Assembly: GCF_000211855.2 (NCBI RefSeq)
Contig: NC_015638.1
Span: 1,426,001 to 1,490,000 of the forward strand
Origin: Lacinutrix sp. 5H-3-7-4
GTDB taxonomy: Bacteria > Bacteroidota > Bacteroidia > Flavobacteriales > Flavobacteriaceae
Direction: 5' to 3'
DNA length: 64,000 bases
Shown here: piece after piece, positions 22,634 to 30,848 of the stretch
How the letters are laid out: each line of letters opens with the position of its first letter
How positions within the stretch are numbered: position 1 is the first letter of the stretch
Notes under the pieces: model-generated
What the model saw: the letters and a program-made list of their open reading frames with translations, nothing else
What the model was told of the DNA's origin: nothing
Database searches by the model: none
Program-made: the position numbers and the translations under genes

Positions 22634-22670
22634 TTAAACTTTCAACACTATTATAGAAAGTTTAAATTTG
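22634..22670 (+). promoter_or_regulatory. leuS promoter -7 with an overlapping inverted repeat
   Basis: TAAATTTG (22663-22670) fits TAnnTTTG. A ten-base inverted repeat, TTAAACTTTC (22634-22643) and GAAAGTTTAA (22656-22665), with a 12-base spacer covers the promoter core and runs into the -7 element. Confidence 0.45.
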
Positions 22671-22697
22671 CCGTTTTATAAGCAGAAAATCAAGACA

Positions 22698-25600
22698 ATG
22701 CAATACGATTTTAATAGAATAGAACAAGACTGGCAAAAATACTGGGCAGAAAATCAAACTTTTAAAGCCTCAAACAATAGCGATAAACCAAAATATTACG
22801 TACTAGATATGTTTCCTTATCCATCTGGAGCAGGATTACACGTTGGGCATCCTTTAGGATATATTGCTAGTGATATTTATGCACGTTACAAACGCCATAA
22901 AGGTTTTAATGTATTACATCCTCAAGGTTATGATAGCTTTGGTTTACCTGCAGAGCAATACGCTATTCAAACTGGGCAGCATCCAGCAGTAACTACAGAA
23001 ACAAATATAAAAACCTACCGTAGGCAATTAGACCAAATTGGTTTTAGTTTCGATTGGAGTAGAGAAGTGCGTACAAGTAATCCAGAATATTATAAATGGA
23101 CACAATGGATATTTATTCAATTATTCGAATCGTATTATTGCAATAATGATAATAAAGCCAAGGATATAAAGGAGTTGGTGTCTATTTTTTCTTCAGAAGG
23201 AAATAGTAATGTAAATGTTGCTTGTGATGATGATGTAGAAGAATTTACAGCCGAAGAATGGAATAGCTTTTCAGCAGAAAAACAACAAGAAATACTATTA
23301 AAATACAGACTAACGTATTTGGCTGAAACCGAAGTAAACTGGTGTCCTGTTTTAGGAACCGTTTTAGCTAACGATGAAATTGTAAACGGCGTTTCAGAAC
23401 GTGGCGGACATCCAGTTGTTCGTAAAAAAATGACGCAATGGAGTATGCGTATTTCTGCCTATGCCGAAAGACTTTTACAAGGCTTAGAAGATATAGATTG
23501 GACAGATTCATTAAAAGAAACACAACGTAACTGGATAGGAAAATCTGTTGGAGCAAGTGTAACATTTAATGTAAAAGAGCACCAAGAAACAATTGAGGTT
23601 TTCACCACAAGACCAGATACTATTTTTGGAGTTAGTTTCATGACATTAGCGCCAGAGCACGAACTGGTATCACAAATTACAACGCCAGAACAAAAAGCAG
23701 AAGTAGAAGCCTACATAGAAAAAACAGCCAAACGCAGTGAACGTGATCGTATGGCAGATGTAAAAACAATTTCTGGAGTGTTTACAGGAGCTTATGCTCA
23801 GCATCCATTTACAAAAGAACCAATTCCAATCTGGATTGGCGATTACGTATTAGCAAGTTACGGTACAGGAGCAGTAATGGCAGTACCATGTGGAGACCAA
23901 AGAGATTACGATTTTGCTAAACATTTTAATATAAATATTCCTAATATTTTTGATGGAGTAGATATTAGCCAAGAAGCTTTTGCAGGAAAAGATGGTGTTA
24001 AAATTGCAAACAGCGATTTTTTAAATGGCATGAATTATAAAAAAGCAAGCAAGCGTGCTATTTATGAGTTAGAACAATTAGGACAAGGCGAAGGCAAAAC
24101 TAACTATAGATTACGTGATGCTGTATTCTCAAGACAACGTTATTGGGGAGAACCATTTCCAGTATATTATGTAAATGGTATGCCACAAATGATTGATAAA
24201 GCACATTTGCCAGTAACACTTCCAGAGGTAGAAAAATATTTACCAACCGAAGAAGGCGAGCCACCATTAGGTCGTGCAGATGTTTGGGCTTGGGATACAA
24301 GTGCAAACCAAGTAGTTTCTAACGATAAAATAGATAATAAAACCGTTTTCCCACTAGAACTCAATACGATGCCAGGTTGGGCAGGAAGCTCGTGGTACTT
24401 TTTCCGTTATATGGAAGAAGCCGCAAATAGAGGCGATGTTTTTGCAAGTGAAAACGCACTAAAATATTGGGAAAATGTAGATTTATACATTGGCGGAGCA
24501 GAACACGCAACAGGCCATTTATTATACTCTCGTTTTTGGGTAAAATTACTTAAAGATCGTGGCTTTGTAAATGTTGAAGAACCTTTTAAAAAGCTAATAA
24601 ACCAAGGTATGATTCTTGGTACTAGTGCTTTTGTTTATAAAATTGGAGCAGTCTCTTTAAGGAATCTCAAAGGGAAAACTGAAAAAAGTTATAAAATTTC
24701 TGGTTCTCCAGAGTTTTATCAAAAAACAAATTTATTAATTTCTAAGAATTTATTTTTTGAAAGTTTAGGGTATAATCAAAAAGCACCTAGCTCTAATGTT
24801 AAAGGAGATGGTTTTCATGATATTTCAATAAAAAATAAATTATTTGATTTTATCTGTAAAGAATTTAAATTTACTACAGAGCAAATTGATAAAATTGAGA
24901 GTGAAGAGCTTATAATAACTTATCATTTTTCTTTTACTAGATCTTTTGTTGGTTATGTAGATTCGTCTGATAATTTGATGATTGATGATTTTTTAAATGA
25001 TAATATGAACAACGATCTTCTAGACGCAAAAATCATAAAAGAAGAAGATAGCACATTTAAAGTTGGTCGTGAAGTAGAAAAAATGTCCAAATCTAAATAC
25101 AATGTTGTAAATCCAGACGATATTGTAAGAGATTATGGAGCAGACAGTTTACGTCTATACGAAATGTTTCTTGGACCTTTAGAGCAATACAAGCCTTGGA
25201 ACACAGCAGGAATTACAGGAGTTCATGGGTTCTTAAAAAAACTATGGAAACTTTATGTCGATGAAAATGGTTTAAAAGTAAACAATGCAGAACCAACAAA
25301 AGACAACTTAAAAACCTTACATAAAACCATTAAAAAAGTAGAAGAAGATATAGAGAATTTTTCTTTCAATACATCGGTTTCTACGTTTATGATAGCTGTA
25401 AACGAGCTTGGAGCTCAAAAATGTACAAGTAAAGAAATATTAGAACCATTATTAGTTTTAGTATCACCTTACGCACCACACATAGCTGAAGAATTGTATA
25501 AAATGCTTGGTAATAGCGGCTCTATTTCTACTGTTACGTTTCCTAAATTTGAAGCTAGCCATTTAGTAGAAAGTAGTAAAAATTATCCAATTTCTTTTAA

Positions 25601-25760
25601 CGGTAAAATGCGTTTTACTTTAGAGTTGCCAATGGATATGAGTAAAGATGATATTGAAAAAACAGTAATGGCTCACGAAAAAACAATTGCACAATTAGAT
25701 GGTCGTACACCTAAAAAAGTAATTGTAGTTCCTGGAAAAATTGTAAATATAGTTGGATAA
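22698..25760 (+). CDS. leuS: Leucyl-tRNA synthetase with an expanded pre-KMSKS region
   Basis: 1020 residues from the ATG at 22698 (an upstream start ten codons earlier overlaps the leader). HIGH motif HVGH at 48-51, editing domain with TTRPDTIFGVSFM, and KMSKS at 795-799. The stretch 649-787, between FVYK and VGREVEKMSKS, is about 80 residues longer than I expect for flavobacterial LeuRS and is rich in Phe, Ser, Asn and Lys. All catalytic motifs stay in frame. Charges tRNA-Leu in the cytosol. The next gene starts three bases on. Confidence 0.97.
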   Translation: MQYDFNRIEQDWQKYWAENQTFKASNNSDKPKYYVLDMFPYPSGAGLHVGHPLGYIASDIYARYKRHKGFNVLHPQGYDSFGLPAEQYAIQTGQHPAVTTETNIKTYRRQLDQIGFSFDWSREVRTSNPEYYKWTQWIFIQLFESYYCNNDNKAKDIKELVSIFSSEGNSNVNVACDDDVEEFTAEEWNSFSAEKQQEILLKYRLTYLAETEVNWCPVLGTVLANDEIVNGVSERGGHPVVRKKMTQWSMRISAYAERLLQGLEDIDWTDSLKETQRNWIGKSVGASVTFNVKEHQETIEVFTTRPDTIFGVSFMTLAPEHELVSQITTPEQKAEVEAYIEKTAKRSERDRMADVKTISGVFTGAYAQHPFTKEPIPIWIGDYVLASYGTGAVMAVPCGDQRDYDFAKHFNINIPNIFDGVDISQEAFAGKDGVKIANSDFLNGMNYKKASKRAIYELEQLGQGEGKTNYRLRDAVFSRQRYWGEPFPVYYVNGMPQMIDKAHLPVTLPEVEKYLPTEEGEPPLGRADVWAWDTSANQVVSNDKIDNKTVFPLELNTMPGWAGSSWYFFRYMEEAANRGDVFASENALKYWENVDLYIGGAEHATGHLLYSRFWVKLLKDRGFVNVEEPFKKLINQGMILGTSAFVYKIGAVSLRNLKGKTEKSYKISGSPEFYQKTNLLISKNLFFESLGYNQKAPSSNVKGDGFHDISIKNKLFDFICKEFKFTTEQIDKIESEELIITYHFSFTRSFVGYVDSSDNLMIDDFLNDNMNNDLLDAKIIKEEDSTFKVGREVEKMSKSKYNVVNPDDIVRDYGADSLRLYEMFLGPLEQYKPWNTAGITGVHGFLKKLWKLYVDENGLKVNNAEPTKDNLKTLHKTIKKVEEDIENFSFNTSVSTFMIAVNELGAQKCTSKEILEPLLVLVSPYAPHIAEELYKMLGNSGSISTVTFPKFEASHLVESSKNYPISFNGKMRFTLELPMDMSKDDIEKTVMAHEKTIAQLDGRTPKKVIVVPGKIVNIVG

Positions 25761-26972: not shown

Positions 26973-27104
26973 CTATAAAAGTATGTTCCTTTTTAAGGAT
27001 TACGAATAAATACCTGTTTTATAATTCTAGTAAATTCACGCTCAAAAAGGACAGTTTATATGTGAAACTTTGTTTACGTATTAATTCATTAAAACATTAA
27101 AATT

Positions 27105-27539
27105 ATGAAAACCACACAAGAACAAAGAAACACGATTATTGCTCACGATTTTATTACTAAAAACACTGGTGTTTTAGATCAAAATAAAATTGATAATGCA
27201 GTAAAAACAATTACAGCTAAAACACAGTCTTACCCAGCTAAAGGAAGTGTTGCAAGTTTTATTTTTTACTTGAAATTTCAAGTTAATATTACTGGTGGAA
27301 AATCTTTTAACGGTAATGCTGGAGGAGCTTCTACTCCTGGAGGAGGCGCTTTAATTGGAGATGTGTATACTAGTGATATAAATCGCTTATATAGTGACAC
27401 TGTAAGTTTTCAATTTACTGCGACACCAGTTTATACAAGTATTATATTTTTTGATAAATCAAGTAATGCTTTAGGCACTTTTCAATGTGGAGCTGTTAGT
27501 ACGGTTGCTGGTGTTGGTGGTGGTTCAGGTAAGTGGTAA
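27105..27539 (+). CDS. VapA-like (Rhodococcus virulence-associated protein family) homologue
   Basis: 144 residues. After a polar N-terminal 45 residues, the segment SVASFIFYLKF, the glycine-rich GGASTPGGG (73-81), YTSDINRLYSDTVSFQF, VYTSIIFFDKSSNALGTF and the end GAVSTVAGVGGGSGKW follow the order and spacing I recall for the eight-stranded barrel of VapA-family proteins. No signal peptide is present, unlike VapA. It is a lone gene flanked by terminators, next to a two-component operon transcribed toward it. Family call is from memory of VapA and needs a profile search. Confidence 0.7.
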   Translation: MKTTQEQRNTIIAHDFITKNTGVLDQNKIDNAVKTITAKTQSYPAKGSVASFIFYLKFQVNITGGKSFNGNAGGASTPGGGALIGDVYTSDINRLYSDTVSFQFTATPVYTSIIFFDKSSNALGTFQCGAVSTVAGVGGGSGKW

Positions 27540-27561: not shown

Positions 27562-27603
27562 AAAACAAAAGTTTCTAAATAATTTTAGGAGCTTTTGTTT
27601 TTT
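27562..27603. terminator. Bidirectional terminator between the VapA-like gene and the regulator
   Basis: AAAACAAAAG (27562-27571) pairs with CTTTTGTTTT (27592-27601), with an inner partial stem TTTCTAAA / TTTAGGAG. Runs of A and T on both flanks serve both convergent genes. Confidence 0.8.
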
Positions 27604-28286
27604 TAATCAAACGAATCCTTTTCTAAAGAAACTAGTTTGTTTTTTAATCCATAAATAACCAAACCAGCAACATTTTTAGATTCTGTTTTTAATAAAAGAT
27701 TATTACGGTGACCTTCTACGGTTCTTGGACTTATAAAAAGTTTTTCTGCTATGTCATTAGTTGTAGATTGTTGACAAATAAGTTCTAAAACTTCAATTTC
27801 TCGCTTGGTAAAATAAGAGGTATCAAAATTTGACTTTACTTTTTTATCATTAGGATTTGTAAGATTTTCGTGTATAAATTGTATTACTTCTTGACCATAA
27901 TAAAAGCCTTTATTGGCAACTTCTTCTATAGTTTTAATCATTAAATTTGGAGTGCTATTTTTTGCCAAATAAGCAACAGCTCCAATAGATATCATGTTTA
28001 GTATAAAAGGTTTGCTAAAATAACTTGTTAAGGCAATGACTTTTATATCTGGAAATTCTTTTCTAATTAATTTTGTGACTTCAACACCATTTAGTTTTGG
28101 CATTTTTAGATCTGTAATTACAATTTCAGGTAATTCATTAGCTTGCCGTAAAAGCATAATTAGCTCTTCTCCATTTTCGGCATCAAAAACAACTTCTATA
28201 TTTTTATTGTTTTCTAAAATGGCTTTCAATCCTTGTCTAAACAATTGCTCGTCATCTGCTAACACAATTTTTATATTATTTTTCAT
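27603..28286 (-). CDS. NarL/LuxR-type response regulator
   Basis: 227 residues from the ATG at 28286. Receiver domain KIVLADDEQLFRQGL (phospho-acceptor Asp in VITDLKMPKLNG), Thr/Lys switch residues in ALTSYF and YLAKNS, then a LuxR helix-turn-helix (TKREIEVLELICQQSTTNDIAEKLFISPRTVEGHRNN). The start overlaps the histidine kinase 3' end by 11 bases. Last gene of the four-gene minus-strand operon. Targets unknown; the flanking VapA-like and tail-collar genes are candidates. Confidence 0.93.
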   Translation of the reverse strand: MKNNIKIVLADDEQLFRQGLKAILENNKNIEVVFDAENGEELIMLLRQANELPEIVITDLKMPKLNGVEVTKLIRKEFPDIKVIALTSYFSKPFILNMISIGAVAYLAKNSTPNLMIKTIEEVANKGFYYGQEVIQFIHENLTNPNDKKVKSNFDTSYFTKREIEVLELICQQSTTNDIAEKLFISPRTVEGHRNNLLLKTESKNVAGLVIYGLKNKLVSLEKDSFD

Positions 28287-29064
28287 AATTACAACGTATA
28301 ATAAATTGACTTCCACTATTAATTGTGCTATCGATTAATAATGTCCCGTTTAAAATTTTAACTCTACTTTTAATATTTTGTAATCCAATTCCTGATTTTC
28401 CTTTAATATCATTCACTGTAAAGCCTTTGCCATTATCTTGATATCTTAAAACAAAACCTATATTACTCTTTTCCATATAGACCGCTAATTCATTGGCTTT
28501 GCCATGCCTAATAGAGTTGTTTATAAGTTCTTGTACAATTCTAAAGACATGTAATTGGTTGGTTTTAGATAGTTTAGGTAATTCTTCTATGTTGCTCTCT
28601 ATATCTAAATTTGTACTTGTAGAGCATTCTTCAAACAACTCTTCTAAAGCAGCTTTTAGCCCAAATTCATTTAGAATAGGAGGTAATAAATCATGAGCAA
28701 TTTTACGTGAACTTTCTAATGTTGTAGAAGTTATTTCTAGTATTTGTTGTAGCGATGCTTTTTGATTTGTTGAAAGACTTATATCTGTTAATAAAACATT
28801 TGTAGATAGGCTTACAATATTAAGTTTCGAGCTAATGGCATCATGTAAATCTTGTGCAATTCTTTTGCGTTCAGCTTCTTGAATTGAGATAGAAGTTTGT
28901 AATATTTTTTGTTGGTTTTCAAGTTTAAGGGCGGCTTTTTCAAGTTCTTTTTGTATAAGTTTTTGTCTTGAATAGTGAAAAAACAAAATTATTCCAGTAG
29001 TAATTAATACTAAAAATATAATACTATAAACTAAGGCTTGTATAATTAATCTTTCGTTTTCCAT
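28276..29064 (-). CDS. HisKA_3-type sensor histidine kinase
   Basis: 262 residues from the ATG at 29064 (a GTG five codons earlier is possible). One N-terminal helix (LIIQALVYSIIFLVLITTGIILFF), a coiled coil, the HisKA_3 box RKRIAQDLHDAISSKLNIVSL with the phospho-His, and HATPase motifs ELINNSIRHGKA and GKGF...GIGLQNIKSRV. It has no sensing domain of its own, so the signal probably comes from the overlapping multi-span gene upstream (19-base overlap). Cognate regulator directly downstream. Confidence 0.92.
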   Translation of the reverse strand: MENERLIIQALVYSIIFLVLITTGIILFFHYSRQKLIQKELEKAALKLENQQKILQTSISIQEAERKRIAQDLHDAISSKLNIVSLSTNVLLTDISLSTNQKASLQQILEITSTTLESSRKIAHDLLPPILNEFGLKAALEELFEECSTSTNLDIESNIEELPKLSKTNQLHVFRIVQELINNSIRHGKANELAVYMEKSNIGFVLRYQDNGKGFTVNDIKGKSGIGLQNIKSRVKILNGTLLIDSTINSGSQFIIRCNYEK

Positions 29065-29693
29065 AAGCTCATTTTCCACTCAAATAATATTAATAAAAGA
29101 TAACCTACATAAAATACTTTATTTAAAAACCAGACATTATTTGCTAAAGATTTATCTATAGAATTAATTACGTTTCCTAGTATAAAAATAAGTGTACTAA
29201 CAGATAAATAAATTAATATTGCTGAATTTATATACATGTATTTTCCAGGTTTTCCTAAAGAATTATACAAATGGGTAATTGAATAAATAACTAAAGGTAG
29301 TGAGGTAATAAGAATTTCTAATAAATTAAACTTAGTAAATAACGATGTGTCTTGATAATATTGAATAGCTAATATTACGGCTACAATACCAAAAAGAAAA
29401 TTAACCCACTTTTTTTGTGTTTTGGTAAAATGTACTTTATAAAAAAGAGATAAAAAGACAAATTGAAAAATAAAGTAAAAGTGGGATAAAAATAAATTAT
29501 TAGTTTTATTAAAGTATTTAATAATAACTATACTTAAGCTCAAAACTAGAAATGTAAGGACTAGGTAAATTGAAAAAGGTACAAGTGCTTTCTCCTTATT
29601 CTTTTTAAAACTGCTATAAGAATATAATATAACATTTATAAATAATAGAATTAGGCCCAAATTTTCAAATACTTCATCAAATATTTTCTTCAA
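29046..29693 (-). CDS. Multi-span membrane protein, probable sensor partner of the kinase
   Basis: 215 residues with about seven hydrophobic helices and short charged loops (for example FKKNKEKALV, HFTKTQKKWVN, KPGKYMY). This resembles 7TM sensory modules of the 7TMR-DISM type without the periplasmic domain, here as a separate protein. It starts three bases after the PCPxxC gene and overlaps the kinase by 19 bases, so all are one operon. No enzymatic motif seen. Sensor role is inference from coupling to a kinase that lacks an input domain. Confidence 0.75.
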   Translation of the reverse strand: MKKIFDEVFENLGLILLFINVILYSYSSFKKNKEKALVPFSIYLVLTFLVLSLSIVIIKYFNKTNNLFLSHFYFIFQFVFLSLFYKVHFTKTQKKWVNFLFGIVAVILAIQYYQDTSLFTKFNLLEILITSLPLVIYSITHLYNSLGKPGKYMYINSAILIYLSVSTLIFILGNVINSIDKSLANNVWFLNKVFYVGYLLLILFEWKMSLWKTKD

Positions 29694-29696
29694 AGT

Positions 29697-30140
29697 TTAT
29701 GGGTTGTATAAAGGGCTGTTTTCATCACACTCACTTGGACATGGTGCTGTAAAATCGTAAACACCACTTCCTTTTAACTTAGAAAATGCAGTTTCTATAT
29801 TTTCATCATTAAATCTTGAAGGTGCTTCTCCTTCAATAATATCTCTATGCTTACCTTCACGATCTACTTTCGTACCAACAATTAATAGTTTTTCTGTTTC
29901 TGGACTTGCAGGCGTTTCCTCAGGTCTTTTAATTGCCATATAAGCACGTACTCCAGAATTTGCTACATTCTTAAGAGAATAGTTTCCGTCACCATCATTA
30001 ATCAATACTTCCATTTCTTCTAAACAAGCAATAAGATCGTTTGCAGGAATTAAAAATGCTTTGGCATGTGTGCTATTTTCGTGTTGCCATTTCCTAGCAT
30101 ACGTTTTTGCTTTATTAATATCAATTGATCTTGAATTCAT
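29697..30140 (-). CDS. Small protein with a conserved-looking PCPxxCDxxSPL tail
   Basis: 147 residues, no signal peptide. The N-terminal half is helical (SIDINKAKTYARKWQHEN, KAFLIPANDLIACLEEMEVL), a middle strand region has SGVRAYMAIKRP and EKLLIVGTKVDREGKHRDII, and the end is VYDFTAPCPSECDENSPLYNP. I recall similar Bacteroidota proteins of unknown function ending in a CPxxC and a SPL-like tail. First gene of the operon with a membrane protein, kinase and regulator. A redox or metal-responsive role is conceivable but not shown. Confidence 0.75.
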   Translation of the reverse strand: MNSRSIDINKAKTYARKWQHENSTHAKAFLIPANDLIACLEEMEVLINDGDGNYSLKNVANSGVRAYMAIKRPEETPASPETEKLLIVGTKVDREGKHRDIIEGEAPSRFNDENIETAFSKLKGSGVYDFTAPCPSECDENSPLYNP

Positions 30141-30320
30141 AATATTAAGTTTTTTGTTGATTAATAGAATTTAAAGTTACTGAATTATACCTTATAAAAG
30201 TGCTGGATATAAAAATAGGGTGTTTCTACGTGCTTTTTATTTTGAGTAATTCTCCTCTGTTTTAAAGTTTTGATTATCAATACATTTGAGTTTGTTATAA
30301 ATCAATAAAACTTAAAAATT

Positions 30321-30848
30321 ATGGAACAGTACATTGGACAAATCATAATGTTTGCTGGAAATTTTGCACCTAGAGATTGGGCGCTTTGCGATGGGCAAAT
30401 ATTACCAATTTCTCAATATCAAGCACTATTTTCTATTCTAGGAACCAATTATGGAGGAGATGGTAGAACAACATTTGGATTACCAGATCTTAGAGGTAGA
30501 ATTCCTGTCCATGCTGGAGTAGGTCCAGGTTTACCTACTTTTTCTTTAGGACAAAAAGGAGGTGCTACGACAAATAAATTGTCTGTAAATCAACTTCCAG
30601 AGCATGATCATACGGGAGCAATACAAGCTGTTAGTCCAATTCCAAGAGGAGGTACAACAGTAAAAAGTCCTATAAACACCTATATTGCCGAAGGCGGTAC
30701 TTTTGCTATGGGTAAAAATGCTTCAATGGCTGTAGATAGTGTATCTATTGGAAAAACTGGAGGAAATCAAGCAGTAAATAATATGCAACCTTATCAATGC
30801 GTAAATTACATAATTGCTTTACAAGGTATGTTTCCTTCAAGATCTTAA
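30321..30848 (+). CDS. Phage tail-collar domain protein (microcystin-dependent-protein type)
   Basis: 175 residues. The tail-collar domain fills the N-terminal half: IGQIIMFAGNFAPRDWALCDGQ, YQALFSILGTNYGGDGRTTFGLPDLRGR. The C-terminal half has NQLPEHDHTG and MQPYQCVNYIIALQGMFPSR, as in Mdp proteins. These occur as stand-alone bacterial genes, often in sets of two or three; here there is one. No other phage gene is near. Function in bacteria is unknown; extracellular fibre-like or tail-derived particles are proposed for the family. Confidence 0.92.
   Translation: MEQYIGQIIMFAGNFAPRDWALCDGQILPISQYQALFSILGTNYGGDGRTTFGLPDLRGRIPVHAGVGPGLPTFSLGQKGGATTNKLSVNQLPEHDHTGAIQAVSPIPRGGTTVKSPINTYIAEGGTFAMGKNASMAVDSVSIGKTGGNQAVNNMQPYQCVNYIIALQGMFPSRS

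Follow-up and report, generated by a model that had tools for sequence, protein, structure and literature searches.

The window analysed here is a stretch of 64,000 nucleotides from the 3.3 Mb genome of Lacinutrix sp. 5H-3-7-4 (contig NC_015638.1, positions 1,426,001 to 1,490,000 of the forward strand), and it holds a four-gene operon on the minus strand. The first gene, which we call the lead gene (29697..30140, minus strand), starts with ATG and encodes a protein of 147 amino acids that ends in PCPSECDENSPLYNP and in which no signal peptide was seen. Three bases past its stop lies a multi-span gene (29046..29693, minus strand) with a TTG start and a product of 215 amino acids, the seven-transmembrane (7TM) protein of this report. 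It overlaps by 34 bases with a histidine kinase gene (28276..29079, minus strand), which is followed by a gene for a NarL/LuxR-type response regulator with Response_reg and GerE domains (27603..28286, minus strand); the regulator reading frame opens with GTG at 28316, and ATG 28286 is the likely start. The reading-frame coordinates bear out the preliminary description of this DNA, which had four genes overlapping or nearly touching in this order. Ahead of the lead gene, an operator-like site (30207..30235, minus strand) with the imperfect inverted repeat CACGTAgaaaCACCCT is the predicted binding site of the regulator. From this site it is 66 bases to the lead ATG on one side and 85 bases on the other to the ATG of a divergent gene (30321..30848, plus strand), a predicted target that encodes a phage tail collar domain protein (PF07484, E 5.4e-31). 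Computation established the operon, its conservation, the model of the 7TM protein, the catalytic residues and the shared site.

The four-gene operon is real and widely conserved in Bacteroidota. By pairwise search, 14 of 99 relatives (own genome included) have the lead protein. A profile placed it in 52 of 397 family genomes and in 14 of 395 from a phylum sample, and a wider profile matched, at E up to 0.001, 61 of 395 genomes sampled from the class. In Lacinutrix venerupis all four genes are present and the lead protein is 82% identical. For the neighbourhoods we took 112 stretches, L017-L088 around lead-protein matches and L089-L128 around further matches: a second copy in the window's genome, nine matches to the 7TM protein, and 30 rows, mostly the best, out of the 86 that matched in the class sample. 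Seven more of the 86 were obtained otherwise. The lead profile matched 112 reading frames in these stretches, those of L090 and L095 coming from loci picked by their 7TM match. Because 100 of the 112 lead frames directly precede a 7TM gene, at a gap of -97 to 180 bases (median 7.5), the operon is not a chance arrangement. Downstream, 87 frames have 7TM-kinase-regulator, five have 7TM-7TM-kinase-regulator, and in four the series includes a second lead gene. The preliminary description had proposed a split sensor and named a lack of linkage in other genomes as the outcome that would count against it; what we found is linkage, with the small protein tied to the membrane protein, kinase and regulator across genomes.

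The frames that depart from this pattern are of several kinds. Five have no recognised downstream gene, three of them at contig ends (L035, L086, L117) and two being satellite lead genes (L024, L031) in loci that also hold a full operon. Further exceptions stand at contig ends (L051, L118, L119), and others precede 7TM-like proteins that the profile missed or under-scored (L089, L124, L127, L128); in L101 the frame belongs to a second lead gene, located after the 7TM gene. Conversely, the gene ahead of the 7TM gene in L097 and L098 was missed by the profile and is, by eye, a doubled lead protein ending in YDWAKPCPPIC. The own genome holds one close 7TM copy. At 2.56 Mb it also holds a diverged cluster (L089, 4926-9025), recognised partly by eye, with a lead-like gene, a 7TM-like gene, a membrane-anchored lead-like gene, two 7TM-like genes and a kinase gene, in which the tails carry no PCPxxC. 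Lone 7TM homologues in L091, L092 and L093 each adjoin a protein of 418-419 amino acids, a relative of which, by eye, lies behind an operator-like site in L083, L085 and L088. In L027, L028, L037, L039 and others of their group, the operon stands behind a glycolysis-type gene set, presumably encoding an isomerase, a sugar kinase and GAPDH, often past a terminator-like hairpin seen by eye.

The kinase and regulator form, by their sequences, an ordinary HisKA_3 / NarL-type two-component pair with the key residues present. HisKA_3 (2.9e-9) and HATPase_c (4e-11) both scored over their cut-offs in the kinase, and the expected histidine is in place (amino acid 79, in DLHD). The preliminary description had called this kinase bare, which is right in that it has no sensor domain, but it is membrane-anchored by one N-terminal helix. 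The assignment of the regulator to the NarL type held, with Response_reg (3.7e-23) and GerE (9.9e-14) both over cut-off and the expected aspartate (VITD) at amino acid 69 counted from the GTG, or 59 from the ATG.

Neither Pfam nor NCBIfam gave the multi-span protein a match above cut-off. Its structural model (predicted local distance difference test score, pLDDT, 94.9) has seven long helices, and with high confidence it is predicted to be a seven-helix protein in an arrangement like that of G-protein-coupled receptors (GPCRs), with its N-terminal end outside; the positive-inside rule likewise gives a topology of N out and C in. A plain hydropathy count of the window protein gives five helices. 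All of its 215 amino acids are taken up by helices, with no enzyme or other domain, in agreement with the earlier claim of a multi-span protein that lacks an enzyme part. The conserved residues N66, N123 and N191 lie at or near predicted outer helix ends. Among 64 7TM proteins no column conserved above 80% is a histidine or cysteine, and H71 is nearly invariant only in a narrower set of 13.

The lead protein, too, matched no Pfam or NCBIfam family above cut-off (best PHROGs E 0.14), and a search of the PDB with its model, which was built from 61 sequences and has an alpha/beta make-up (pLDDT 90.6), found no fold match. In the window the C-terminal tail is YDFTAPCPSECDENSPLYNP. Across an alignment of 112 lead proteins, conservation is complete at P135 (111 of 111), the proline behind the first tail cysteine, and high at D129 (107 of 110), an aspartate ahead of the tail; the two tail cysteines are present in 105 of 111 (first) and 97 of 109 (second). 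We placed these characters on a kinase tree, quickly made and with long branches joined, that covers 90 operons with a single lead gene. One or both cysteines are absent in 13 of the 90 operons (both in L063, L065, L069, L070 and L103; a single one in eight other operons), amounting to three changes on the tree with the operon intact. A signal-bearing lead protein occupies the same operon place in 10 of the 90 loci, again with three changes, and eight of the ten fall in one supported group. Signal peptides were called here by a hydropathy rule rather than by SignalP; 12 of the 112 frames passed, including three that are satellite or second lead genes; the lead of L115 passed a looser form of the rule only. 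Nine of the ten proteins look lipoprotein-like, a label given by eye, a scripted lipobox rule having flagged two of the 12 signal-bearing frames. Longer signal-bearing proteins with a lead-like domain occur within or near operons in L024, L031, L095 and L101. Because both characters vary across the tree, neither 'two cysteines' nor 'cytosolic' defines the lead family; the preliminary description of the lead as cytosolic suits the window protein, in which no signal was seen, but not the family as a whole.

Aligning the promoters of Lacinutrix relatives revealed a conserved block, and we newly recognise an inverted-repeat site ahead of many lead genes, in the promoter region common to them and their divergent neighbours. 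The matrix for this site rests on 23 sites with the consensus AAACACGTAGAAATACCTGTTTTT, an imperfect inverted repeat; kin of the window, down-weighted, supplied part of its sites, and the window's own site is included. Across L017-L128 (1,066,628 bases) 47 sites scored above 18, against a mean of 0.4 in five Markov sequence sets. A lead gene begins within 300 bases downstream of 36 of the 47, at a distance of 63-98 bases in 25 cases. While 21 of the 47 are matrix sites, the other 26 comprise 15 before lead genes (in 12 loci) and 11 elsewhere, and those before lead genes include distant loci with a signal-bearing lead (L107, L118, L120). The nearest gene is divergent in 33 of 35 operons with a site of at least 16, against 18 of 62 without, and it encodes a collar protein in 20 operons with a site and six without. 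Thirteen other divergent genes stand beside sites, and in a scan of six of them we found DUF1842 (L114), PI-PLC-X (L118), BNR (L104), a CBM-like domain (L107) and aegerolysin (L120), the domain scan of the sixth (L023) finding nothing; the divergent gene of L115 resembles that of L114 by eye. The DUF1842, PI-PLC-X, BNR and aegerolysin genes belong to distant families. These surface or secreted-type families show no signal peptides by eye, and none was seen in the window collar protein either. One phage-tail-collar protein seems to carry a signal peptide; its gene (L163, 901-1485) follows one that is response-regulator-like. Elsewhere in the own genome (L156, around 1497; genome position 816,668), a near-perfect palindrome, TACGTATTTATACGTA, lies behind another NarL-type regulator gene and is possibly a paralogous operator.

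Taking the sequences together, we lean towards reading the operon as a split 7TM-receptor two-component system in which the lead is a receptor partner or ligand and the regulator controls the shared promoter. The sensor would be divided among three proteins, the lead, the 7TM protein and the kinase. The 7TM protein would act as receptor in the inner membrane, and the one-helix HisKA_3 kinase, having no sensing part of its own, would dock beside it. The lead would bind the 7TM protein as a regulator or ligand, probably via its folded domain together with the conserved C-terminal tail, and an altered lead-7TM complex would alter the activity of the kinase, which would in turn phosphorylate the NarL-type regulator. 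In lineages such as this one the regulator would then bind the inverted repeat of the shared promoter and control its own operon along with the divergent genes, here the collar gene and elsewhere other surface or secreted-type genes. We infer the lead-7TM contact, the control of the kinase by the 7TM protein, the binding of the site by the regulator, the direction of regulation and the signal.

Several observations weigh against this split-receptor reading, beginning with the gene sets. The operon of L123 has a 7TM fragment only, no regulator was recognised in that of L105, and the 7TM homologues of L091-L094 lack the remaining operon genes. L075, L124 and L089 contain repeated lead-7TM pairs, yet two 7TM genes accompany one lead gene in L039, L063, L065 and L074, and two lead genes one 7TM gene in L101 and L126. 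Because lead and 7TM duplications are thus mixed, duplication favours a partner role only weakly, and linkage is the stronger argument for the partnership. The lead-7TM partial correlation (0.17) is not above that of lead and kinase (0.18), and the window lead is signal-less whereas the pocket of the 7TM protein would face outside, so that contact could be on either side. As to the site, 11 of the 47 are not ahead of a lead gene, and the window's own, scoring 25.5, is a weak motif member and belongs to the training set. A plain pattern scan of the window gave three matches against 1.23 expected, which is not significant, and none of them at the lead promoter. A strict pattern had no match in G317, G136 or G395, where lead operons are present; two large sets of operons have no site, those behind the isomerase-type gene and the part of the g151 operons that stands behind a gene of 514 amino acids. 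The link to divergent targets is likewise imperfect. Six of the 26 collar-adjacent operons have no site, the divergent gene of L111 looks housekeeping-like by eye, and those of L029, L041, L043 and L090 have no family assignment. Collar genes occur in 13 of 14 lead-positive relatives against 15 of 85 others, a count confounded by kinship, with 10 of the 14 from one genus; G087 and G097, lead-negative by the pairwise search, have lead matches by profile. As a control, one of 20 loci of collar genes away from lead operons scored above 18 (L182); it lies in G852, a genome with lead operons, and is the sole strict-pattern match of that genome. None of the away-from-operon collar loci of the lead-positive genomes G075, G051, G001 and G087 scored above 18. 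Because the control yielded one strong site in 20, the site goes with the operon and not with collar genes generally.

A GPCR-like relay, which we regard as doubtful, would have the 7TM protein sense a dedicated protein ligand, the lead, via its tail at the outer face of the inner membrane and pass this on to the sensorless kinase. Its regulon would comprise surface or secreted-type proteins (phage-tail-collar, DUF1842, PI-PLC-X, aegerolysin and perhaps VapA-like). If true, the system would govern the deployment of such proteins by Bacteroidota.

It is unlikely, by a similar weighing, that, in an export-coupled or quorum-type loop, an exported lead is itself the 7TM ligand through which the cell reads its own collar-type release or the density of its kin, the lead leaving as a lipoprotein in some families and by another route elsewhere. 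The signal-bearing orthologues at the same operon place would suit such a role, as would N66, N123 and N191 at or near the outer helix ends, the divergent surface or secreted-type families in which no signal peptides were seen by eye, and the one collar protein with an apparent signal peptide (L163). The export route is supposed, however, and 80 of the 90 lead proteins on the tree are signal-less.

Rather unlikely, in our judgement, is that the lead stands outside sensing, as the first product of an autoregulated operon and an effector or chaperone for collar-type proteins that merely shares a transcript with an ordinary 7TM-kinase-regulator set. Behind the site the lead gene comes first, lead-like lipoproteins with no kinase of their own exist as satellites (L024, L031), and in a comparison of distances the lead is less tied to the other three proteins (r 0.72-0.74) than these are among themselves (0.87-0.91). 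Linkage is nevertheless near-complete, also in operons without a collar gene or site, and lead-7TM pairs are repeated in L075 and L124. Quite improbable is the redox or metal role that the preliminary description gave to the tail cysteines, in which a cytosolic lead would signal a change of state in its CPxxC tail via the 7TM protein to the kinase: most members keep both cysteines, and neither the window lead nor most of its relatives show a signal peptide, but the cysteines were lost in three places on the tree while the operon persisted, P135 and D129 are kept throughout or nearly so, and the signal-bearing versions retain both cysteines.

Literature searches, read at the level of titles and abstract openings, gave no description of this four-gene system. 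In their way of working, its closest known counterparts are sensor kinases with a 7TM part (7TMR-DISM, BtsS) and three-gene systems whose membrane regulator has a gene of its own (LiaFSR, UhpABC). 7TMR-DISM receptors are histidine-kinase-linked and have seven membrane helices with the N-terminal end outside, a likeness that the model predicts here too. In the known ones a single chain includes the enzyme domain, and ligands bind to an outer domain, whereas here the 7TM protein stands alone, with no fused enzyme domain. PF07695 (7TMR-DISM_7TM) did not match the window protein at E up to 1 or any of ten distant 7TM proteins at E up to 0.1, and matched weakly in four of 64 relatives (E up to 0.05, best 0.00045). 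LiaFSR and VraTSR combine a HisKA_3 kinase that has little or no sensor with a NarL-type regulator and a separate membrane-regulator gene; LiaF is not known as a 7TM protein, no counterpart of the lead is known in these systems, and the window kinase, at 106.6 bits against the NCBIfam cut-off of 450, falls far short of LiaS. In UhpABC a receptor in its own gene, the 12-helix transporter homologue UhpC, controls a HisKA_3 kinase and a NarL-type regulator; the window kinase reaches 91.9 bits to UhpB, far under the cut-off of 408, and UhpABC is not known to include a lead protein. The Agr peptide signalling operon resembles ours in its four genes for a small protein, a multi-span protein, a kinase and a regulator. 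AgrB, however, is a peptidase with catalytic histidine and cysteine, which have no column conserved above 80% in our 64 7TM proteins, and the lead is a folded domain rather than a short peptide. In BtsS/BtsR a LytS-type 7TM pyruvate receptor feeds a two-component system (PMC10653868), but 7TM part and kinase form one protein and the regulator is of LytTR type, unlike here.

The unit contains two protein families without a Pfam or NCBIfam name and offers a setting in which to study the control of a histidine kinase by a 7TM protein encoded separately. The operon may control neighbouring phage-tail-like and other surface or secreted-type genes, and it gives a first handle on the possible control of tail-collar, DUF1842, PI-PLC-X and aegerolysin-type proteins in Bacteroidota.

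On the 3' side of the operon, the window holds a candidate second operator-like site (26998..27026, plus strand; matrix score 20.2), 78 bases ahead of the ATG of a VapA-like gene (27105..27539, plus strand; R_equi_Vir, E 1.8e-37). No signal peptide was seen in its product, and relatives are 87.5% (L023) and 84.7% (L024) identical; a site of 21.7 precedes the relative in L023, and none above 18 that in L024. As plain pattern scanning gave no significant result for the window, this gene is a tentative second target. Further along the window, a frame of 1030 amino acids (22668-25760, plus strand), which we take to be leucyl-tRNA synthetase-like, may by eye hold an insert.
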